From an uncultured Microcaldota archaeon (lineage in GTDB: Archaea > Micrarchaeota > Micrarchaeia > CAILAH01): a DNA stretch of 35,818 bases. Position numbers and translations under genes: made by a program. Positions 2,767-32,295 of the stretch are shown in pieces (the stretch's first letter is position 1; every line of letters starts with the position of its first letter). The stretch is taken from NCBI GenBank assembly GCA_903832205.1, contig CAILAH010000057.1:1-35818 (forward strand), read 5' to 3'. Below the pieces are notes generated by a model. The model ran no database searches. It saw only the letters and a program-made list of their open reading frames with translations, and was not told the DNA's origin.

Positions 2767-3018
2767 CTAATCAATGTGCAAATCAAGGCCCGTAATTATC
2801 TTGTGCGCAAGCTGGCTTATCTCCAAATCGTTGGACCTGAGGTATCTGTAGAGAACCGGGCTTGATTTCATCATCTCGTCAAAGTAGGCGTCCTTTTCCA
2901 AGAGAATCTCCTTCGCCTCAGCGCGCGTTGCGCTATTCAGCTTGTTCGTCCACACGATAATCCGCGCTTCAGCATCCTTGTACTCCTTTGATTGCGCGAG
3001 CTCAAGCATCTTCTTCAT
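2767..3018 (-). CDS. small helical protein, 83 aa, coupled to the metallopeptidase
   Basis: The start ATG overlaps the stop of the upstream metallopeptidase gene in an ATGA arrangement (3015-3018), so the two are almost certainly translationally coupled. A longer reading frame exists upstream but lies inside the neighbour, so I chose the overlap start (MKKMLEL). The protein is small, charged and predicted mostly helical, with no signal peptide or membrane segment. The family is not recognised. Tight coupling suggests a partner, inhibitor or chaperone of the metallopeptidase; this is inference from gene order only. Confidence 0.75.
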   Translation of the reverse strand: MKKMLELAQSKEYKDAEARIIVWTNKLNSATRAEAKEILLEKDAYFDEMMKSSPVLYRYLRSNDLEISQLAHKIITGLDLHID

Positions 3019-5051
3019 ACGATACCAGCCTCCTCTTCTTTTTCGGGTTTCATTATAAACACCATCAGCGGGTCTTCTGACCACTGGTTCGGGTCGATGG
3101 ACTTTTTCTCCATCATATTGCCCAGCCTGGTGCACGCATCAAGCCCGGTTGTTGCACTCTTAAGCTGCAGGAACGAGCCTTCACCGAGCGCCGCATCAAA
3201 CTTCCGCATGACATCGGTGAAATCTCCCTTAAGATAGGCACTCTTGAGCACGTCAGCTCCGACAATCTTCTGCATGTATAAAGCGACCGTTGTTTCAGCA
3301 GGGTAAGCGATTGCATCGGGCTTCACGTCGTGCTCCTGCGCAAGCTGCTGCGCGTGCAATTCAGTAAGCCCCTCGTTCAGCCAATTGCTCCTGAACTGGT
3401 GCTCCTTGCCGCCGCTGTAATACCTCTGGTACTCGCCGCCGCCAAGCCAGGATGCATAATGAAGCTGCTCGTGCGCGGAAACCTCCATAAGCTGGGAGGT
3501 GCTTTTGAATGTTGAGCGCATGGCGAACATGTTGGTGAATGTAAGATACTGCGCAACCGCGCCGGACCTGCTGCCCGCAGGCGCGCCCCTCTCGATTGAG
3601 TTGAGCTGAAAAAAGTACTGGTCGCTCATGAGAATGAACGGCGGCTTCCGCACAAAGCTGTTGTAGACGCTGTCGCCGAGGAAGGCGCGCGTGAGCCATT
3701 TTTCCGACACTTCCTGCGTGCGCGATAAGCTTGATTTTGGCATGTCCCTGGCCCGTGTTTCCTGCGGCATATAAATGTCGAAATTATAGGCTGCGTGATG
3801 CATGCGCGTGAAAACCAGCTGTGAATAGAGGCAGAGCCGCGCCTCATCACTATTGCTGACCACGAGATACTGCCCCACATCCTTCCGTTCACCCAACAGG
3901 GTAAAGTCAATCGTGGTGGGCACAACCTTCGCGAGCTTTTGCAGGAATCCCTGAGAGATATCCATGCCCTTTGATTTTTCCTGCAGCGCCTTTAGCATAA
4001 AGGGCGTGAATGCCTCATTGAACAGCTTAGCCTGCGACTCAGCCAGGGTTTTGCTTACGGCCTTTGCTGAATTGATGCCTGCAAAATATGAAGTGCATGT
4101 CTGCTCAACCATGCCTAAGCTTTCAAAGATGTGGCCAGCCTTGTTGTAAAACTGGAGCGCCTTCTGCGGGTCCTCGCTCTCGCGGCAATAGGCGGCATCA
4201 TAATAGCTCGAAGCTTCCTTGCTCAATGCCCCGGCTTTGTGGAACATCTTTGCTGCCGTAAGGAAAAGCTGCTGTGAATCATTGTGGAATATTCTTGAGA
4301 TAAGGTCTGCAGCTGTGTAATAATAGCCGCCAGCCACCTCATATTCATTGTTGTTCTCGGCAAGCGCTCCGAAATCGCTGTAGATATCAGATTTTTTCTT
4401 AATGAAAAATGCGCGCTCGATTGGGAACTGCCGCCCCGCCATCGCTATGCCCTCATCATATGCCTCAAACGCCTTGGTAGCCATTGCAAGCTTGTCCCAG
4501 TAAATTTCGCCTGCCCCTTTGCAGAGAAGCATGATTTTCTTTGACTCGGCCTTCAGCTGCGGGTGGTCGGACATATATTCCGCCCTTTTAAGGAGGATTG
4601 CAGCCGCGCGCTCGGTCCCGATGCGCTTCGCAGCATTAATCGCCTCATCATATTTGCCCTCGCTTATCAAATCGGTGATGCGCTGCTCCTCCCTGTGGCC
4701 CTTGACCTGCCCCATCCTCTCCTGCGCTGCGGTCCTTGCCTTTGCAAATCCGCTTTTCTTTTGTGCGGAATGCGCAACTCTTGCACTGCCTTTCTCCTTG
4801 TGCTGGCCCGTTTGCAGCGCATCCATGACGACCGCATGTATTTTATTGGCAAGCTGCTTCGCGTGCCTGCCCTTCCTCTTGCGCAACTTCTGCGAAAGCA
4901 TGTATACTGAGAGGATGTTGTCAATTTTCTTGTCGGCCAGGACTGAAACTTCCGGATAATCAAGGTGGAGATAATCCTGCGAGATTTCGCTCAATAGGTT
5001 CAGGTGCTTCCTGGAGAGCATGAACTTCTCAAGCGCCTTGGGATACTCCAT
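3015..5051 (-). CDS. TPR-repeat gluzincin-type zinc metallopeptidase, 678 aa
   Basis: The C-terminal part has HEQLH at residues 527-531 and WLNEGLTE with Glu560, 29 residues after the second His. This HExxH...NEG(L/x)xE pattern is that of gluzincins of the MA clan (peptidase_MA-like, related to M1). The first 400 residues are helical with TPR-like pairs (segments such as AAKMFHKAGALSKEASSYYDAA), and a basic stretch lies near residue 60. There is no signal peptide, so it is probably intracellular. I chose ATG 5051 because a TATA box at 5071-5081 lies 25 nt upstream, indicating a leaderless message; an upstream in-frame ATG at 5084 precedes that TATA box and is unlikely. It is followed by a coupled 83-aa gene. 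Substrate unknown. Confidence 0.8.
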   Translation of the reverse strand: MEYPKALEKFMLSRKHLNLLSEISQDYLHLDYPEVSVLADKKIDNILSVYMLSQKLRKRKGRHAKQLANKIHAVVMDALQTGQHKEKGSARVAHSAQKKSGFAKARTAAQERMGQVKGHREEQRITDLISEGKYDEAINAAKRIGTERAAAILLKRAEYMSDHPQLKAESKKIMLLCKGAGEIYWDKLAMATKAFEAYDEGIAMAGRQFPIERAFFIKKKSDIYSDFGALAENNNEYEVAGGYYYTAADLISRIFHNDSQQLFLTAAKMFHKAGALSKEASSYYDAAYCRESEDPQKALQFYNKAGHIFESLGMVEQTCTSYFAGINSAKAVSKTLAESQAKLFNEAFTPFMLKALQEKSKGMDISQGFLQKLAKVVPTTIDFTLLGERKDVGQYLVVSNSDEARLCLYSQLVFTRMHHAAYNFDIYMPQETRARDMPKSSLSRTQEVSEKWLTRAFLGDSVYNSFVRKPPFILMSDQYFFQLNSIERGAPAGSRSGAVAQYLTFTNMFAMRSTFKSTSQLMEVSAHEQLHYASWLGGGEYQRYYSGGKEHQFRSNWLNEGLTELHAQQLAQEHDVKPDAIAYPAETTVALYMQKIVGADVLKSAYLKGDFTDVMRKFDAALGEGSFLQLKSATTGLDACTRLGNMMEKKSIDPNQWSEDPLMVFIMKPEKEEEAGIV

Positions 5052-5070
5052 GGCAAATACTTGTTGATGA

Positions 5071-5081
5071 GGATATAAAAA
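5071..5081 (-). promoter_or_regulatory. TATA box for the gluzincin cluster
   Basis: The minus strand reads TTTTTATATCC, centred 25 nt before ATG 5051. This spacing decides the start of the metallopeptidase and implies a leaderless transcript. The divergent 5148 gene has its own AT-rich element at about 5114-5134. Confidence 0.55.
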
Positions 5082-5113
5082 CATTGTTCTGCGCCGAGAA
5101 TAATGTCCCTGCT

Positions 5114-16376: not shown

Positions 16377-17474
16377 ATGATACCGGGATTGCACATAAAC
16401 ACGGTTGCAGAACTGCTCTACTATTTCGGCGTAGGGGGATTTGGGGGAGTGGTGCTCCTCTACATTCTCTACGGGATTTCTGTTGCCCTGGATTCCATCT
16501 ATTCAATCGCGCTCAACATCCCTGACGGCGCGACCGGGATTGCGCCCACGGCCGCACAGCAGCTCTCGGCCAAAGGCGAGGTTGGCAGGGGCGTCTATTC
16601 CTATCTGATGGGGGGAATCATTGCAGTGGGCGCATCAATTGTGCTTATCCCGCTTTTGCTCATGCTCATGCCGGTTTTGCAGCCGCTGCTCCAGGCAAAC
16701 ATGTTCCTTGTAATACTGTTTGTGGCATCGCTCATGCTCCTTAGTGATTTCAGCATTGCAAACCTCGCCGCGTTCATTATAGCCGGGCTTTTTGGCTTTT
16801 TCGTACTTAACGCCGATACGTCCGGCAACCTAATATTCCCAATGTTCGTCGGATTCTTTACGCTCCCCATGCTCATGCTCAAGACAAGGGCGCTTGGGGT
16901 CGAGGCAAAATACAAGGCCAAGATTAATTGGAAAATCCCGATCCTGGCGACTCTTGTTACCGCATTTGCCTATCTCATTCCCGGAGTGGCCACGCCCACA
17001 ATCATCGTGGTGCTCGCAGGGCTTTTCACGAGAATAAAAAATGATGAGTTCGTTACCGCGCTGGGAGCAATCAATGCGTCCAACCTCATCTTCTCAATTC
17101 TCATGATAGACATAATAGGGAAGGCGCGCGTGGGCGTTGCCATTGTAGCGCAAAACATGTACCACACATTCATCTTCGGGGATTTGATGCTCGCGCTCAT
17201 TGGAGCCGCGGCATTCGGCATTACCGCACTGCTCATACTCCACTACCTTCCCAATGCAATTAGGTTTTTCTCGCCGTTCACACACCCGCTAATGAAATTT
17301 GTGCTTGCCCTCTATCTTGCGCTTCTCGTCTTCCTGATAAACGGCGCATTTGGAATCCTCATACTGGGAATGGCGACCATAATCGGAACGCTTGTGTTGC
17401 TAATCCGCGCAAGGAGAACCACGCTGATAGGCAGCATCATATTAAACTCCCTGTCGTATTATTTCGGAAAATAA
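16377..17474 (+). CDS. TctA/DUF112-family membrane permease, 365 aa
   Basis: Ten or more hydrophobic segments span the whole protein. The N-terminus MIPGLHINTVAELLYYFG matches the PGLHxNT start of archaeal DUF112 proteins, which are related to the TctA subunit of tripartite tricarboxylate transporters. A second half repeats the pattern with IPGVATPTIIVV near residue 200. No TctB or TctC gene is nearby, as is usual in archaea, so the substrate cannot be predicted. It starts 47 nt after valS; no clear promoter separates them. Confidence 0.85.
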   Translation: MIPGLHINTVAELLYYFGVGGFGGVVLLYILYGISVALDSIYSIALNIPDGATGIAPTAAQQLSAKGEVGRGVYSYLMGGIIAVGASIVLIPLLLMLMPVLQPLLQANMFLVILFVASLMLLSDFSIANLAAFIIAGLFGFFVLNADTSGNLIFPMFVGFFTLPMLMLKTRALGVEAKYKAKINWKIPILATLVTAFAYLIPGVATPTIIVVLAGLFTRIKNDEFVTALGAINASNLIFSILMIDIIGKARVGVAIVAQNMYHTFIFGDLMLALIGAAAFGITALLILHYLPNAIRFFSPFTHPLMKFVLALYLALLVFLINGAFGILILGMATIIGTLVLLIRARRTTLIGSIILNSLSYYFGK

Positions 17475-17482
17475 GGCTTTAA

Positions 17483-20329
17483 TTATTCTAATCTGCTTGC
17501 AACAATATCTCCTGTGCTCGCAACCGTGCCTGGCCTGAATACGCGTTTTATGGGATTTGTGTAAAGCACATTCCTTATGCTCCCGTTCCTGTTCAATTCA
17601 AAATATGCGCTGGACTCATAGACCGGTGCGATTAGCTCGGCACCCACTTCATTAGCCATGACCGCAGCTATGCCCCGGTCATGCTTGCCTGTCGAGCATG
17701 CATCAAGAATTATATGGGGCTGCTTGGTGCCGGCAAATGCATTTTTCAAAGCCCCCAGGCTTTCCTTGTCAGAAATGTCCACGCGGTTTGCTGCGGCCGA
17801 CCCGCCCAGGTCAATGCTTGACACATCACCATGCGCACTTATCACCAAAGTGTCAATCTTCCCATATGCCCTTGGCAGCACAGCCATCTTCTCGAAAAAT
17901 TCCTTCTTTGTTGAGACCTCAGCAACAATGACGCGATAATGGCGGGTTAATTGGCCAAGCACATTGCCCGTCTGGTAGAGCGCACCGTTCCAGTCGTAGG
18001 TGCCGGCCATTACCAATAGCAGCGGCTTGTCGCGCTTCCTCGTTGAATCCATATTTGCTGCAATCTCATTAAGCAGTGAAGGGGAATATCTCAGGAAATT
18101 GCTTATGCCCAGGTCCCTGTAGAGCATCTTTGTATTTTCTTCGCCAACCATAACCATTGAGTATGCCAGGTTATAGCACAGGAACGCATCATCCGCATTT
18201 GCACCAAGGCCTTTTGCCACCATCTCCGCGGCATCGAGCGTTTCAGTTATGCGCGCAATGTTTTTGACAAAATCAGGATTTGATTTAATCAGGTTTAGCA
18301 CTGCATCATCCCTGTCCTTGAATAATGGAAAGAATTTCATCATGCCCTTTACCATGGCGGACATCTTTTCCTTGTCTTCAGGGAAATATTTCAAAAGCGG
18401 GAAGAAACCGCCTTCAAATCCGCCCTTGGTGATTTTCATATACGCATCCTGGTACTTCAGTATACGTTCCGCTGTTTGCGCATTGATGGAATCAAGGCCT
18501 GTCTCCCTTACGGCACCCTGTATTGTCTTTTCCCTTTCGGAAACGTTCTTTTCCCCTGCCATGAGGATGGAATGGAATTCAACAAGGTTATCCGTGAATT
18601 CCTGGTTAAGGTAATCCTGGGTAAACGAGGGGTTCTTAAGGACAGCCACGAAAAGGTCCGCTGCATATCCGCCGCCCTTCTTGCGCAGGGATTTCGTAAA
18701 CCTGATTAGTCTCTCGCTGAATTCCTTATTTAGCCCGTCCTTGTCAAAACTCGGGTTAAGCAGGAGGGCATTAAGGCAGTTGATGTAATAATCAACATTC
18801 CACTTCTCCTCAATTAGCCCATCCAATATTGCGAGATGCCTGCCCTGCGGGTCGGTTGTGAGTATCTGGCCAAGGCTCGTCAAGGCAGGGCCGATAACGA
18901 GGGACTCGCACTCGGAGAATATCGTCTTTACAATCTCAAACCGCTCCCTTGTAAAGCCCGGGGAACGGAAAAGCAATGAAAGTGGCTCATCATACATCCC
19001 CAAGGCGAGGCCCTTGTATTCTTCTTTTCGTGAGAAGTAATTAACAATGTCGCGGGCAAAGGATTCATAATCATCGAGCGAGTGCACGTTCTGGTTTGCT
19101 ATAAGAGATGCGGCGGGGAAGCAGAACCAGCTTAGGTTCTTTGACTCAATATGCTTAAACACTTCAGCGAGCCTGTCGGCATTATTATCGGAAAAGTCCT
19201 TGATTGAAAAGTTCGGGTTATAAAAGAGGGAATAGGCCGCGTTAATCGCGTATTCACCTGAGGTTTTCTTTGCAAGCCTGTCCGCGAATGAGAGAACGGC
19301 GGGCTCGAACTGCCCGCTGTAATAAATCAAAGAAATCATATGGACTGACATTGAGATGTTTGTATTTTTCTTCAGAAGCGATAGTATGGTATCAAGCGAG
19401 TCGAGTGTGAATTTTTCATTGATAAGGATTGATTCGAACCTATTCTTTGCTGAGGCCCCGAGCTGGCTTGATATTTTTTCTGATGAGAGGGTTGCATAAA
19501 ATGATGCCGCTTTCTCAATGTGCTCCTTTTTTATGTCCTGCAAGCGAATGCCCGGGTTGTTAAGAAGGCAGTCCAAAATAATCTCCTTTTCGCTGGAGTT
19601 GATCATTTTGCCTAGCCGTACCGCCTCATCAGACGCAGCACCGCTGAAATTCATAGTGGCGAATTTGTCAAACGCAAAATAGGCAATTCTTATTGAATTC
19701 TGCCGGTCACTTGAAAATGTTGAGGCCGCCACTGACTTGTTTACCACCTGCTCAAGAAAATCAAGGGTTTTTAGGCCGAACTTCTCCATGGAGAATATCC
19801 CATAGAGGATGTTGACATCAGCATGCAATGACTTGCTGGAAAGGTTGTTGAAGAATTCTATCTCCCTATTTAGCAGCGCACTCTTGGACTTGTAATCCGG
19901 GCCGATGGATGCTGCGATGGGATGGAATACCTCGTTAAAATCCTTGCACTTTTCGGCTACAATCGCCGCCAGCGGTATCATTTCCAACGGCTTGCTTGTG
20001 GAAAATATCTGCCTTAGGCAAACCTCAACATTATTTGGGGAAGGCTTCTTTGAATATATGGTAGATGCAATCTGGTCAAGCTGCATGAGCATTTCCGTTG
20101 TGAGTTTCATTGGCTTAAAATTCGGATGGTTCACGAGAGACGTGAGAGACTTGATAACTTCAACGGGGTGTTTAGCCCCCTTGGCATAATCAGATACCTG
20201 CTCGATAACGTGTGACTTGGCCTCCTCGCTTTGATTTACCATAAAATAATGCTGCAGCTTGAAAATCTCTGCTGATGCTTGCGTACGCTGCTTTGCAGGC
20301 GATGACTGTTGTACTGCTGATTCTGCCAT
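17483..20329 (-). CDS. helical-repeat protein with C-terminal caspase/CHAT-like Cys protease domain, 948 aa
   Basis: The C-terminal ~180 residues form a clan CD-type domain. A strand (KPLLLVMAGTYDW) leads to DTLVISAHGD with His833 and then to HIILDACSTGKHD with Cys878. The 45-residue gap and the xxAHG / DACSTG pattern match the catalytic dyad of caspase-, gingipain- and CHAT-type peptidases. Residues 1-770 are all-helical with a recurring NP-x-F motif (HPNF, NNPGI, YNPNF, RSPGF, LNPSF, KNPSF, SNPDF), each followed by a helix, as in a degenerate alpha-solenoid. There is no signal peptide. It has its own TATA-like box (GTTTTAATTG) about 27 nt upstream and no operon partner. Cytosolic signal-triggered protease is inference. 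Confidence 0.85.
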   Translation of the reverse strand: MAESAVQQSSPAKQRTQASAEIFKLQHYFMVNQSEEAKSHVIEQVSDYAKGAKHPVEVIKSLTSLVNHPNFKPMKLTTEMLMQLDQIASTIYSKKPSPNNVEVCLRQIFSTSKPLEMIPLAAIVAEKCKDFNEVFHPIAASIGPDYKSKSALLNREIEFFNNLSSKSLHADVNILYGIFSMEKFGLKTLDFLEQVVNKSVAASTFSSDRQNSIRIAYFAFDKFATMNFSGAASDEAVRLGKMINSSEKEIILDCLLNNPGIRLQDIKKEHIEKAASFYATLSSEKISSQLGASAKNRFESILINEKFTLDSLDTILSLLKKNTNISMSVHMISLIYYSGQFEPAVLSFADRLAKKTSGEYAINAAYSLFYNPNFSIKDFSDNNADRLAEVFKHIESKNLSWFCFPAASLIANQNVHSLDDYESFARDIVNYFSRKEEYKGLALGMYDEPLSLLFRSPGFTRERFEIVKTIFSECESLVIGPALTSLGQILTTDPQGRHLAILDGLIEEKWNVDYYINCLNALLLNPSFDKDGLNKEFSERLIRFTKSLRKKGGGYAADLFVAVLKNPSFTQDYLNQEFTDNLVEFHSILMAGEKNVSEREKTIQGAVRETGLDSINAQTAERILKYQDAYMKITKGGFEGGFFPLLKYFPEDKEKMSAMVKGMMKFFPLFKDRDDAVLNLIKSNPDFVKNIARITETLDAAEMVAKGLGANADDAFLCYNLAYSMVMVGEENTKMLYRDLGISNFLRYSPSLLNEIAANMDSTRKRDKPLLLVMAGTYDWNGALYQTGNVLGQLTRHYRVIVAEVSTKKEFFEKMAVLPRAYGKIDTLVISAHGDVSSIDLGGSAAANRVDISDKESLGALKNAFAGTKQPHIILDACSTGKHDRGIAAVMANEVGAELIAPVYESSAYFELNRNGSIRNVLYTNPIKRVFRPGTVASTGDIVASRLE

Positions 20330-20403: not shown

Positions 20404-20943
20404 ATGGACAACAGGATAAAGGGGCTGCTCATTGTAATTCTCGCCCTAATCATTCCCATAATCATATTCGTAAACTACGACGCGATAGCCAAATATGACT
20501 GGAGCTCGCTCGGCTATTTCGGCGTGTTCCTGGTAATGCTCATAACGAGCGCTACAGTAATACTTCCGGTTCCGGGGCTTGCAGTGGCAACCATTGCGGG
20601 CGCATTTGCCAATCCTCTCCTGATTGGAGTTGCGGGAGGGCTGGGAAGCGCACTAGGCGAATTGACCGGCTATCTCGCGGGCTATGGCGGCAGCGAATTA
20701 ATTGACGGGAAAAAGATGAAAGAATACGAGAAAATAAAGAAGATGCTGATGGAAAAAGACCGTGCGTTCATACTCATATTCTTCCTAGCACTTATACCGA
20801 ACCCGCTGTTTGATATTGCGGGAATTGCTGCGGGCGCAATAAGATACCCGCTCTGGAAATTCCTGCTCGCCTGTGCGCTAGGAAAAATAATCAAGGTTGC
20901 AGTGTTCGCATATCTGGGATACTTAGCTTTCGCCGCCCTCTGA
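20404..20943 (+). CDS. VTT-domain (DedA/SNARE-associated) membrane protein, 179 aa
   Basis: Hydrophobic segments lie at residues about 7-25, 35-60, 65-95, 120-145 and 155-178. The central pattern (ILPVPGLAVATIAGAFANP...GGLGSALGELTGYLAGYGG) and later NPLFDIAGIAAGAIRYP match the VTT/DedA fold with its re-entrant helices. Family members are linked to lipid scrambling or membrane homeostasis; which applies here is unknown. It is divergent from the caspase-like gene and lies 63 nt upstream of the M15 lipoprotein. GGGTAG lies just before the ATG. Confidence 0.85.
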   Translation: MDNRIKGLLIVILALIIPIIIFVNYDAIAKYDWSSLGYFGVFLVMLITSATVILPVPGLAVATIAGAFANPLLIGVAGGLGSALGELTGYLAGYGGSELIDGKKMKEYEKIKKMLMEKDRAFILIFFLALIPNPLFDIAGIAAGAIRYPLWKFLLACALGKIIKVAVFAYLGYLAFAAL

Positions 20944-21006: not shown

Positions 21007-24000
21007 ATGAGGCTCCTTTCATTCCTTCTGATTTTCACATTGTTCCTGGTCCTTTCAGGCTGCGTATTTGAGGCCAGCAATGACTCTCTCAGCAGCAACC
21101 AGGTACGGGTGCAGGATTCCGCCAATATTGATGTCCAGACGAGCAGCAACGTCGTCCTCCCGAGCATGGCCGACAGCCTGCAGAAAGTCACAAAATCCCT
21201 GTATGAGGATACGTGTAATAAAATAGTGGTTACGGGCGCAAGCAGGACCAAAAAAGGGCAGGCGGAGATGTTTTACAAAAACTGTCTTTTGAATGAAGAT
21301 ATGATTTGCAAGCCTGACACATGCGATATTACCAAAGGCAAATTGTTTGACCGCGGCCCGGACGGTGAATACATACCTAAAGGCGCATTGATAGGTGTTG
21401 ACCTAAGCGACGAGGCCAAGGTAGTTAAGCTCCTTACCAATAACGGCGACGAAAAGAACTGCCCCCACACAACCGATATTGCGATTGACATTTGGTGTGA
21501 CGGCACGGTGGGCAAGCAGGCGGACGTCGCATGCGAGAAGAGGCTCGCGGAATTGATGATTGCGAACGGCTTCTGCCGACTCACCACCGAGGCATGGCAT
21601 TTTGAGTGGGCAGCAGAAAACATTTCACCGGGCTGCAGGACGGATCTGGGTGCATCCTATTATGTTAAGTACAAGACGGATGACCCGGCCCATCCGATGG
21701 TTTGGAAGCTTGTAGATCCGACAAAAGACGAGGAAACGGGAGAGGAATGCGCAAGATGGGATTATGATGCACATCAGTGCATACAAACAAAATCATCCGC
21801 AGAGGCCGATACCAGCAGTGCGAAAAAGAAGTCATGCAAGAATGAATCCATCGTTGCCATCGTTAATCATAATATCCAGCCGATAATCAACAACATAGTG
21901 CCCAAGCCAAAATGCCCGACAGGAAACGTCTACGGCAGTGACAACCGCTGCCACCCTGCGTGCGGCTACAACACCTATTGCACGGGCGATTCGCAGTGCT
22001 TCAATAACCAGTGCCTAATCTGTGAAACCGGCTTTTACCTTGGGACAGACGGCAAATGCTACCCCAAAGGCGGCAACGCCTCAATTATTACATGCCCCAC
22101 CGGCTACGTTCCCGGTGAAGGCGAGATGTGCTATGAAGAGTGCGGCCCAAACACTTACTGCACGGGCGGCTCAATCTGCTACAATGGCGAATGCATAAAC
22201 TGCGAGCCAGGCAGCTATCTGGGAACGGACGGCCAGTGCCACCATGAAAACGTTCCGGACTTGATTGACATCTGCCCCAAGGGCACCGTTTACGGTGATG
22301 ATGAGATGTGCCACGAGGAATGTGGCTATAACCAATACTGCACGGGCAATTCCATATGCTTAAATGGCCGATGCCTCGGCTGCGACCCTGGCAATTATTT
22401 GGGGATGGACGGAAGATGTTATCCTGAAAATGGCGATTTGCCGCCTGAATGCTCCGATGGCTATGTTCCAGGTGATGATGGGATGTGCTACCAGGAATGT
22501 GGTTATAATCAGTACTGCACGGGCGACTCATTCTGCTACAATGGCGAATGCAAGGGCTGCAACAAAGGCAGCTACCTGGCAATAGATGGCAAATGTTATC
22601 CGGAAAGCGGCGATGAATGTGAAAAGGGCTTTGTGTTCGGCACCGACAACTGGTGCCACCCAGGATGCGGCACGGACACCTACTGCATAGGCGATTCATA
22701 CTGCTTTAACAGCAAATGTGTTGGCTGCGACCCGGGATATTATCTTACAACTGACGGCACTTGTGCCAAGCTAGGCGGAGTCTGCGATGAGGGATTCGTA
22801 CTAGGCGATGACTATTGGTGCCACCCAGAATGCGGTCAAAACCAATACTGCACTGGTGATTCGTATTGTGACAACGGCGAATGCGTAATTGATACAGGCT
22901 GCAACCCCGGCTATGTCCCAGGAGGAGACGGCTATTGCTACCCAGAATGTGGCCATAATCAGTATTGCACAGGCGACTCATATTGCTATTACGGCGAATG
23001 TGTAAGTGGAACAAAGTGCGACCCAGGCTTCGTTCCCGGTGATGACGGTTACTGTCACGAGGAATGCGGTTACAACGAATATTGTACCGGAAATTCACAT
23101 TGTGAGAACGGCGAATGTGTAACAGGTAACGGCTGCGACCCGGGCTTCGTTCCGGGCGACGATGGCTTGTGCCACCCCGAATGCGGCAGTAATCAGTACT
23201 GCACCGGTGACTCACAATGCGTAAACGGCGAATGTGTAAGTGGAACCGAGTGCAACCCCGGCTTTGTTCCCGGTGATGACGGTTATTGCCACGAAGAATG
23301 CGGCAGTAATCAGTACTGCGTCGGCGATGCCATGTGCATTAACGACCAATGTGTAGGCAAAATCTGTCCACCTGGTTACGTGGCAGGCAATGATGATCAG
23401 TGCCACACGGAATGCGGCAGTAATCAGTACTGCACAGGCAATTCTGTATGCGAAAACGGGGAATGTGTTGTTGACAATGGATGTAATCCAGGATATGTTC
23501 CGGGAGGAGACGGATATTGTTACCCAGAATGCGGATATAACCAGTACTGCACGGGCAATTCTGTGTGCGAAAACGGGGAATGTGTTGTTGACAATGGATG
23601 TAACCCAGGGTATGTTCCGGGAGGAGACGGATATTGTTACCCAGAATGTGGAACTAACCAGTACTGCACAGGCAATTCTGTATGCGAAAACGGGGAATGT
23701 GTTGTTGACAATGGATGCAACCCAGGGTATGTTCCGGGAGGAGACGGATATTGTTACCCTGAATGCGGATATAACCAGTACTGCACAGGCAATTCTGTAT
23801 GCGAAAACGGGGAATGTGTTGTTGACAATGGCTGTAACCCAGGTTATGTTCCTGGAGGAGACGGATATTGTTACCCTGAATGCGGCTACAACCAGTACTG
23901 CACGGGCAACTCATATTGCTCCAACGGCCAATGCGTTGTTGACAGCGGCTGTAACCCAGGTTATGTTCCGGGTGGAGATGGCTATTGTTACCCCGAATGC

Positions 24001-24063
24001 GGCTATAATCAGTATTGCCCCAGCGGCACATACTGTTCCGGTGGCCAATGCTACTATTACTGA
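21007..24063 (+). CDS. lipoprotein with VanY-like M15 peptidase domain and 16 Cys-rich repeats, 1018 aa
   Basis: The N-terminus ends in lipobox LSGC with Cys19, so it is likely lipid-anchored outside the cell. Residues about 60-260 carry the zinc ligands of D-Ala-D-Ala carboxypeptidase-type M15 enzymes: His154 and Asp161 in HTTDIAID (family pattern HxxGxAxD, here Gly to Asp), then Glu195 and His198 in EAWHFEW. Residues 303-1018 are 16 Cys-rich modules of the form CxxGYVPGxDGxCxxECGxNQYCTGxSxCxNGxC. The first five are longer (55-60 aa) and the rest are about 39 aa. They resemble EGF-like stalk or adhesion modules with 3-4 disulfides each. Hydrolysis of a peptide cell-wall link is family inference; the host lacks an obvious peptidoglycan. 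Confidence 0.85.
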   Translation: MRLLSFLLIFTLFLVLSGCVFEASNDSLSSNQVRVQDSANIDVQTSSNVVLPSMADSLQKVTKSLYEDTCNKIVVTGASRTKKGQAEMFYKNCLLNEDMICKPDTCDITKGKLFDRGPDGEYIPKGALIGVDLSDEAKVVKLLTNNGDEKNCPHTTDIAIDIWCDGTVGKQADVACEKRLAELMIANGFCRLTTEAWHFEWAAENISPGCRTDLGASYYVKYKTDDPAHPMVWKLVDPTKDEETGEECARWDYDAHQCIQTKSSAEADTSSAKKKSCKNESIVAIVNHNIQPIINNIVPKPKCPTGNVYGSDNRCHPACGYNTYCTGDSQCFNNQCLICETGFYLGTDGKCYPKGGNASIITCPTGYVPGEGEMCYEECGPNTYCTGGSICYNGECINCEPGSYLGTDGQCHHENVPDLIDICPKGTVYGDDEMCHEECGYNQYCTGNSICLNGRCLGCDPGNYLGMDGRCYPENGDLPPECSDGYVPGDDGMCYQECGYNQYCTGDSFCYNGECKGCNKGSYLAIDGKCYPESGDECEKGFVFGTDNWCHPGCGTDTYCIGDSYCFNSKCVGCDPGYYLTTDGTCAKLGGVCDEGFVLGDDYWCHPECGQNQYCTGDSYCDNGECVIDTGCNPGYVPGGDGYCYPECGHNQYCTGDSYCYYGECVSGTKCDPGFVPGDDGYCHEECGYNEYCTGNSHCENGECVTGNGCDPGFVPGDDGLCHPECGSNQYCTGDSQCVNGECVSGTECNPGFVPGDDGYCHEECGSNQYCVGDAMCINDQCVGKICPPGYVAGNDDQCHTECGSNQYCTGNSVCENGECVVDNGCNPGYVPGGDGYCYPECGYNQYCTGNSVCENGECVVDNGCNPGYVPGGDGYCYPECGTNQYCTGNSVCENGECVVDNGCNPGYVPGGDGYCYPECGYNQYCTGNSVCENGECVVDNGCNPGYVPGGDGYCYPECGYNQYCTGNSYCSNGQCVVDSGCNPGYVPGGDGYCYPECGYNQYCPSGTYCSGGQCYYY
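21913..24060 (+). repeat. coding tandem repeats, 117-bp units at the 3' end
   Basis: Sixteen units encode the Cys-rich modules. The last five to six (about 23400-24010) have period 117 bp (39 codons) and are nearly identical at DNA level, differing mostly at synonymous sites, whereas the first five have diverged and carry an extra half module. This gradient suggests recent expansion at the 3' end. The repeats are contiguous coding units with no spacers, so they are not a CRISPR array. Confidence 0.9.
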
Positions 24064-24187: not shown

Positions 24188-24322
24188 TGGAGGGGAAGGG
24201 ATTTGAACCCTCGAACCCGCTAGGGGACCAAGCGTCTCACACGTTTTCTTTTGGTACAGCTTTTCTTTCCAAAAGAAAAGATGTCCTGAACCTGGCGCGT
24301 TTGACCACTCCGCCACCCCTCC
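24188..24322 (-). tRNA. tRNA-Leu(CAG) with 51-nt intron
   Basis: The acceptor GGAGGGG pairs with CCCCTCC, with discriminator A and no encoded CCA. The anticodon stem CCAGG/CTTGG, loop TT-CAG-G, long variable arm and T-arm GAGGG-TTCAAAT-CCCTT identify a type II tRNA-Leu. The intron (24234-24284) lies after position 37. Loop bases TTCA pair with TGAG near the intron 3' end, leaving the two bulges expected of a bulge-helix-bulge splice site. The intron contains a perfect 11-bp palindrome TTTTCTTTTGG/CCAAAAGAAAA. The mature length is 84 nt. Confidence 0.93.
24244..24279. repeat. inverted repeat inside tRNA-Leu intron
   Basis: TTTTCTTTTGG (24244-24254) and CCAAAAGAAAA (24269-24279) form a perfect 11-bp stem with a 14-nt loop that itself contains TTTTCTTT. 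It is the same arm sequence as the hairpins at 50-94 and 24393-24434. Confidence 0.75.
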
Positions 24323-24440: not shown

Positions 24441-24634
24441 CGGGCCCAGAGGGATTCGAACCCTCGACCATCAGATTTCTCAGGTATTCCCCATATCTTG
24501 AGGGGATATGAGGGTAGATGGAAGGGGGGACCTCATACTTGCGAAGCAAGTTGAGGCACTGTTCGCGAAGCGAACGAGTGTCCCCTTCCACCACTGTAAG
24601 AGTCTGCCGCTCTACCAAGCTGAGCTATGGGCCC
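24441..24634 (-). tRNA. tRNA-Lys(CTT) with 120-nt intron
   Basis: The acceptor GGGCCCA pairs with TGGGCCC, with discriminator G and no encoded CCA. The D-arm GCTC/GAGC and T-arm GAGGG-TTCGAAT-CCCTC are perfect. The anticodon strand GCAGA pairs with TCTG at four positions (27/43 is G-A), and the loop CTCTTA gives anticodon CTT. The intron spans 24477-24596 after position 37; three of the four central bulge-helix-bulge pairs (loop CTCT with intron TGAG) form. The mature length is 74 nt. A TATA-like AAACTTTTT-type run (24651-24660, shared with the divergent CYTH gene) lies about 22 nt upstream. Confidence 0.93.
24477..24596 (-). other. tRNA-Lys intron folding as a three-way junction
   Basis: The base helix is TGGAAGGGG (24519-24527) with CCCCTTCCA (24582-24590). 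Arm 1 is CCTCA-t-ACTTGC-GAA-GCAAGT-TGAGG (24531-24556). Arm 2 is CACT-GTTCGC-GAA-GCGAAC-g-AGTG (24557-24580). Both arms end in GCGAAGC, a loop known to form exceptionally stable mini-hairpins in DNA. The intron is unusually long and ordered for an archaeal tRNA intron. A function beyond splicing is unknown. Confidence 0.7.
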
Positions 24635-32117: not shown

Positions 32118-32295
32118 TGCAGGGGGCAGGATTTGAACCTGCGAACCCGCTAGGGGACCGGACTTTTTACATCAATGAAGATGCAACCCAAATCCTTTGA
32201 GGGAGGATAGGTGGGTTGCGAAGGGGGAAAGGAGCGCTCTCCTTGCACCCTTCGTCCTAAATCCGGCGCGTTTGACCAGGCTCCGCCACCCCTGC
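32118..32295 (-). tRNA. tRNA-Leu(TAG) with 92-nt intron
   Basis: The acceptor GCAGGGG pairs with CCCCTGC, with discriminator A and no encoded CCA. The anticodon stem CCGGA/TCCGG, loop TT-TAG-G, long variable arm and T-arm GCAGG-TTCAAAT-CCTGC identify type II tRNA-Leu. The intron (32164-32255) follows position 37, and loop TTTA pairs perfectly with TAAA near the intron 3' end, as in a bulge-helix-bulge site. The intron forms two arms: GCAACCCA/TGGGTTGC (32183-32219) and GAAGGG/CCCTTC with inner GGAG/CTCC (32220-32253). The mature length is 86 nt. A T-tract follows the 3' end on the minus strand. Confidence 0.93.

Follow-up and report, generated by a model that had tools for sequence, protein, structure and literature searches.

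Clan CD proteases that carry a repeat arm are already known. In Csx29 (TPR-CHAT) of type III-E CRISPR, the TPR part detects target RNA and allosterically brings His615 and Cys658 into register, which leads to one cut in Csx30; Csx29 also contains a clan CD pseudo-peptidase, the CHAT1 domain (PMC10028731). Separase (C50) has a HEAT/ARM-type array followed by a C-terminal clan CD protease (PMC4626109). A sensor-plus-protease layout is also found in SAVED-CHAT (PDB 8tl0; CHAT, PF12770), which has the clan CD fold and an HG...C dyad, while Tce1, a T6SS effector of Pseudomonas aeruginosa (DUF4347; PDB 9qpe), is a small clan CD core whose 178-residue chain in the fold library lacks a repeat arm. Here, we describe a solenoid that is joined to a predicted cysteine peptidase of clan CD (caspase-haemoglobinase fold); what is new is the Micrarchaeota family to which it belongs, the exchangeable arms of this family, and its partner-free organization.

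The fusion is encoded on the minus strand at positions 17483 to 20329 of the window, by which we mean the whole analyzed stretch of 35,818 nucleotides. The ORF has an ATG start, 948 codons, and zero internal stops, in agreement with the 948-residue protein reported by the first-pass annotation, and the source, a Micrarchaeota MAG (1.11 Mb, 70 contigs, completeness of 82%), is archaeal, as had been supposed. At 46.9%, the G+C content of the ORF is the lowest among the 19 larger window ORFs tabulated (range otherwise 49 to 53%). A second, distant family member (L085) is located on contig 59 of the same MAG. Elsewhere in the window, three tRNA genes with long introns (24188 to 24322, 24441 to 24634, and 32118 to 32295, minus strand; spans of 135 to 194 bases) were detected with Rfam but not with ARAGORN. 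A TPR/SNAP-like protein with a C-terminal HEQLH...ELH (3015 to 5084, minus strand) is possibly a gluzincin metalloprotease, that is, a second repeat-plus-protease fusion. A 1018–amino acid lipoprotein-like product (21007 to 24063, plus strand) begins like a D-Ala-D-Ala carboxypeptidase and contains many Cys-rich EB-module repeats that are nearly identical to one another.

The sole alpha/beta domain of the full-length model is the C-terminal one (residues 764 to 935; 17525 to 18040, minus strand). An AlphaFold2 model of this domain, based on a 48-row alignment, reached a pLDDT of 95.0 and a pTM of 0.92. The predicted order, beta1-alpha1-beta2-alpha2-beta3(His)-hairpin-alpha3-beta4(Cys)-alpha4-beta5 with additional hairpins, is the strand order described for caspases (PMC4357240). 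Model strand 141 to 147 is followed by His149 (His833 of the protein) and strand 188 to 192 by Cys194 (Cys878), so that, as is typical of clan CD, beta3 of an alpha/beta sheet ends in His and beta4 in Cys. A Foldseek search of the PDB with the domain returned Tce1/DUF4347 as the best match (E = 3.4e-5), along with legumain, caspase-8, SAVED-CHAT, CED-3, and caspase-3. The TM-scores of 0.3 to 0.5 (normalized by query), which are low partly because the helical module was included in the query, place the domain inside the clan CD fold but assign it to no solved family. Legumain (C13) and caspases (C14) share with it the strand order and the positions of His and Cys, but there is no detectable sequence family match, and their TM-scores are 0.3 to 0.4. 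SAVED-CHAT differs in its sensor, the candidate sensor here being a helical repeat array rather than SAVED. At the sequence level, the single 948-residue protein matched nothing in the PDB, and the family profile gave weak matches to the Tce1/DUF4347 and SAVED-CHAT structures; a profile match to FCP17 was judged to be due to chance. When a viral fold library was queried with the domain, the top matches were phage proteins and giant-virus caspases, the best of them being a “minor capsid protein” fragment of Siphoviridae sp. ctKUC4 (BFVD A0A8S5P2H5; E = 8e-7).

The first-pass annotation had proposed a caspase/CHAT-type protease on the basis of a His-Cys dyad. The translation bears out the 45-residue distance between His833, in LVISAHGD (codon 17831 to 17833, minus strand), and Cys878, in IILDACSTGK (codon 17696 to 17698, minus strand), and the caspase-type sheet of the model supports the fold; conservation among homologs agrees with both. 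In the family alignment, the two predicted catalytic residues and Glu804, at the end of beta2 (codon 17918 to 17920, minus strand), are invariant in 61 of 61 proteins; Asp779, just after beta1 (codon 17993 to 17995, minus strand), and Arg747 are present in 57 of 61. The His-Cys spacing ranges from 37 to 69 across the family (median of 44) and is 43 in Csx29. Collecting the 61 members with a profile creates a bias toward proteins that keep the motifs; nevertheless, strict invariance is informative since the profile extends over 242 columns and several matches align at only ~20 to 25% identity. Both Asp779 and Glu804 are candidate active-site residues, located in the model at the edge of the sheet that holds the active site. 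Asn42 is the third catalytic residue of legumain, and either Asp779 or Glu804 may play a comparable role. Together, the fold and the dyad suggest that the 948-residue protein is likely to be proteolytic. A catalytically dead domain serving as a binding module has precedent, since clan CD pseudo-peptidases such as CHAT1 of Csx29 exist (PMC10028731); we nevertheless consider it highly improbable here, given the invariance of His, Cys, and Glu804 against a mean column identity of 25 to 30%.

Upstream of the peptidase, residues ~12 to 763 of the full-length model are all helix, and no pseudo-caspase domain precedes the active one. The pLDDT is ~40 to 79 before residue 690 and very high from residue 700. 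The earlier statement that the first 770 residues are helical is therefore matched by the model in extent, at low to moderate confidence for the part before residue 690. Residues ~12 to 696 (18242 to 20296, minus strand) form a HEAT/ARM-like superhelix, also of low to moderate confidence, whose Foldseek matches in the PDB are HEAT/ARM superhelices (SF3B1, karyopherins, and Pds5B), with separase-securin at rank 17. These matches support an alpha-solenoid ahead of the protease, and whole-chain TM-scores near 0.2 allow no finer name for the arm. At least seven NP-x-F motifs had been reported; the strict count is four (residues 371, 525, 566, and 684), and seven is reached only if HPNF, NPGI, and SPGF are included. 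Even so, four is far above chance: shuffling the first 700 residues gives an expectation of 0.1, and in 20,000 such shuffles a count of four was never reached. The array itself is real: a repeat profile built from the repeats of two relatives (consensus IAEKSGENAPYALNALESLLKNPNFKPEMLNE) found 24 copies in L086, 15 in L090, and five in the 948-residue protein, compared to one match in all shuffled family sequences. The five copies, all on the minus strand, occupy residues 53 to 74 (a weak copy; 20108 to 20173), 287 to 314 (19388 to 19471), 352 to 377 (19199 to 19276), 511 to 535 (18725 to 18799), and 551 to 576 (18602 to 18679).

The NPxF solenoid is one among several interchangeable repeat types of the family. 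Pfam HEAT/Arm models match the arm of relative L086; the arm of L037 has a TPR-like SNAP match below the cutoff; that of L105 is ankyrin-type; and the arms of a genome with nine family members (G043) contain FAKNP repeats. Common to nearly all relatives is a family-specific helical module between arm and protease, represented here by residues 700 to 763 (18041 to 18232, minus strand) with a near-invariant GIxxFxRY that includes Arg747. This fixed joint appears to be the best candidate for a relay between the two parts.

All strong similarity detected in a first search fell within the C-terminal ~250 residues. When 301 Micrarchaeota genomes from 126 genera were searched with a 250-residue profile of this part, family members were found in 38 genomes (~13%) and 26 genera. 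A profile search of the fetched loci yielded 61 proteins above 40 bits, including the 948-residue one, with lengths of 219 to 2505 amino acids and the protease domain at the C terminus in nearly all. Three giants (L102, 2328 to 9842, 2505 amino acids; L104, 6869 to 13414, 2182 amino acids; L103, 8314 to 12399, 1362 amino acids) have an internal protease and long C-terminal extensions, which in L104 include a HATPase_c domain after the protease domain. Two distant members (L115, 5972 to 7714; L120, 103 to 2814) have Por secretion-tail domains and were omitted from the tree because of possible bacterial contamination of the MAGs. A scan of 84,980 genomes with the single protein detected no relative, and a scan with the pattern of a 12-row alignment found relatives only in Micrarchaeota among named genomes and no match in viral contigs. 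There was likewise no match in plasmids and phages by tblastn or, for the 948-residue protein, in PHROGs.

Curated models place the protein outside the CHAT and DUF4347 families. Its Pfam match to DUF4347 (PF14252; residues 800 to 890; E = 1.3e-3) scores 18.9 bits against a cutoff of 24.6. At the cutoff, DUF4347 was found in none of 98 genomes searched; at E ≤ 0.01, it is the most frequent sub-threshold Pfam match of the family (17 of 48 domains). CHAT (PF12770) does not match the 948-residue protein and was found in 1 of 48 domains (E = 4e-4) and 1 of 96 genomes. No NCBIfam model names the protease domain, and NCBIfam matches to pelota and SDR, each in only one or two members, were dismissed as chance. 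PADLOC-DB contained no family matching the 948-residue protein, with no anti-phage system model matched; strong PADLOC-DB matches in relative L105 fall on its ankyrin-like arm. Our search of the literature on Micrarchaeota and caspases and on DPANN and CHAT found no paper describing such a family.

The gene lies between a membrane protein gene (16377 to 17474, plus strand) and a gene for a VTT-domain (DedA-like) membrane protein (20404 to 20943, plus strand). In four of four relatives from the same GTDB family, these two genes are adjacent on the same strand with gaps of ~10 to 115 bases (including some Ns in G004); in the source genome, they are separated by 2.9 kb containing the opposite-strand ORF. 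The empty site in all four relatives points to a mobile single-gene module. The alternative, that the sister genomes have lost the gene, would be less parsimonious. Two genomes of the same GTDB family (G002 and G004) have their own copies at other sites, and four proteins from this GTDB family do not group on the tree (four changes, the same as with shuffled labels). In the 1.2-Mb genome G043, nine paralogs group in a single, fully supported clade. Seven of these, with differing arms, are arranged in tandem (L027, 5232 to 19530; G043:C25), and two copies are located elsewhere. The arms of these paralogs share 29% identity with 29% gaps, compared to 53% identity with 4% gaps in the protease parts. 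A family match in G006 (G006:C20:33277-33708) has three in-frame stops and is a likely pseudogene. The empty site, the G043 clade, the low G+C content, and the decayed G006 copy suggest gain, amplification, and decay of a single gene.

Across the family loci, no recurring neighbor or operon partner was found; genes for aminoacyl-tRNA synthetase, UvrAB, and ABC proteins adjoin a few copies and were rejected as partners because they are ordinary housekeeping genes. There is no CRISPR or defense-island context at the locus, no Cas7-11, other Cas, or STAND ATPase neighbor was recognized in the window, and Cas1 is absent from the 82% complete genome. None of the neighboring genes was recognized as a gasdermin candidate. 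The suggestion of the first-pass annotation that the gene stands alone is thus supported both in the window and by its surroundings in related genomes.

The best reading is that the protein is related to Csx29 or separase in working principle and is a member of neither. Like Csx29, it has a protease preceded by a helical repeat arm, a layout in which switching of an endopeptidase by its arm is known, but no Cas7-11 or Cas1 was found, a CHAT1-type pseudo-caspase is absent, and its repeats are not TPR. It resembles separase, whose substrate at anaphase is the cohesin kleisin, in the HEAT/ARM-type array and C-terminal clan CD protease; the differences are the lack of a pseudo-protease domain, the patchy accessory distribution, and the archaeal origin. 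By analogy with these two enzymes, the solenoid would sense a signal and release protease activity, as the first-pass annotation had also inferred. The long N-terminal HEAT/ARM-like array would serve as the recognition arm. When a partner or non-self molecule binds to it, the GIxxFxRY linker, the likely relay, would rearrange, and the shift of the linker would set the His833-Cys878 dyad in register. The activated enzyme may then cleave a single cellular protein or a few, as do Csx29 and separase. We put at about 0.5 the probability that the protein is such a single-chain, repeat-gated cysteine endopeptidase, encoded by a mobile, partner-free gene and engaged in conflict, i.e., defense against viruses or mobile elements. 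A mobile gene without a partner whose relatives multiply with differing arms fits a conflict role better than a housekeeping one.

Gain, amplification, and decay fit conflict genes, and surface or host-interaction genes behave alike. Micrarchaeota are generally regarded as host-dependent, and the protease could act at or outside the envelope of such an archaeon, its repeats binding host or neighbor proteins that it then processes. This option is strengthened by N-terminal hydrophobic export or anchor segments in 11 of the 55 members whose start is complete. A lipobox-like Cys accompanies the segment in a few of them, and the 11 include the second copy of the same genome, L085, with a lipobox-like VSAC. 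Part of the family thus probably works outside the cell, and the family as a whole is probably active on both sides of the membrane. The closest solved structure, Tce1, is moreover a secreted effector. On the other hand, the 948-residue protein, like 43 other complete members, has no N-terminal export segment, and its sequence contains no transmembrane-like stretch. We consider a surface role of this protein possible but doubtful.

An endogenous regulator of division, chromosome segregation, or protein quality control, comparable to separase or to a legumain-like housekeeping protease, could explain why a HEAT/ARM-type array precedes a clan CD domain, as it does in separase (PMC4626109). Such a function is hard to reconcile with presence in only 13% of genomes, an intact empty site in a sister genome, proteins that do not form one clade within a GTDB family, as many as nine copies in a genome, and the absence of a pseudo-caspase domain ahead of the active domain, and we regard it as unlikely. 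Alternatively, the peptidase may act only on itself, so that the arm is matured or released and other proteins are left intact. Autoprocessing is common in clan CD (PMC4357240), but the domain is C-terminal with almost nothing beyond it in most members, and no conserved cleavage site was noticed by non-systematic inspection; self-processing as the sole activity therefore seems quite unlikely.

Returning to the conflict-type, repeat-gated protease, a broader proposal for the family is more tentative, and we would not bet on it at even odds: a one-gene, immune receptor–like protease family of Micrarchaeota in which a fixed clan CD protease is combined with exchangeable, fast-diverging repeat sensors, travels as single-gene cargo, and reaches nine copies in one genome through birth-and-death amplification, with no need of a CRISPR, STAND, or gasdermin partner. 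Little is known about conflict systems in DPANN archaea, in part because they escape curated models, as nearly all of this family does. What the arms recognize can be tested directly with the G043 paralog array. If the proposal is true, very small genomes would devote up to nine genes to receptor-proteases with diversifying arms, and the layout of separase and Csx29, a repeat arm that switches a caspase-like domain, would exist as a stand-alone archaeal module.
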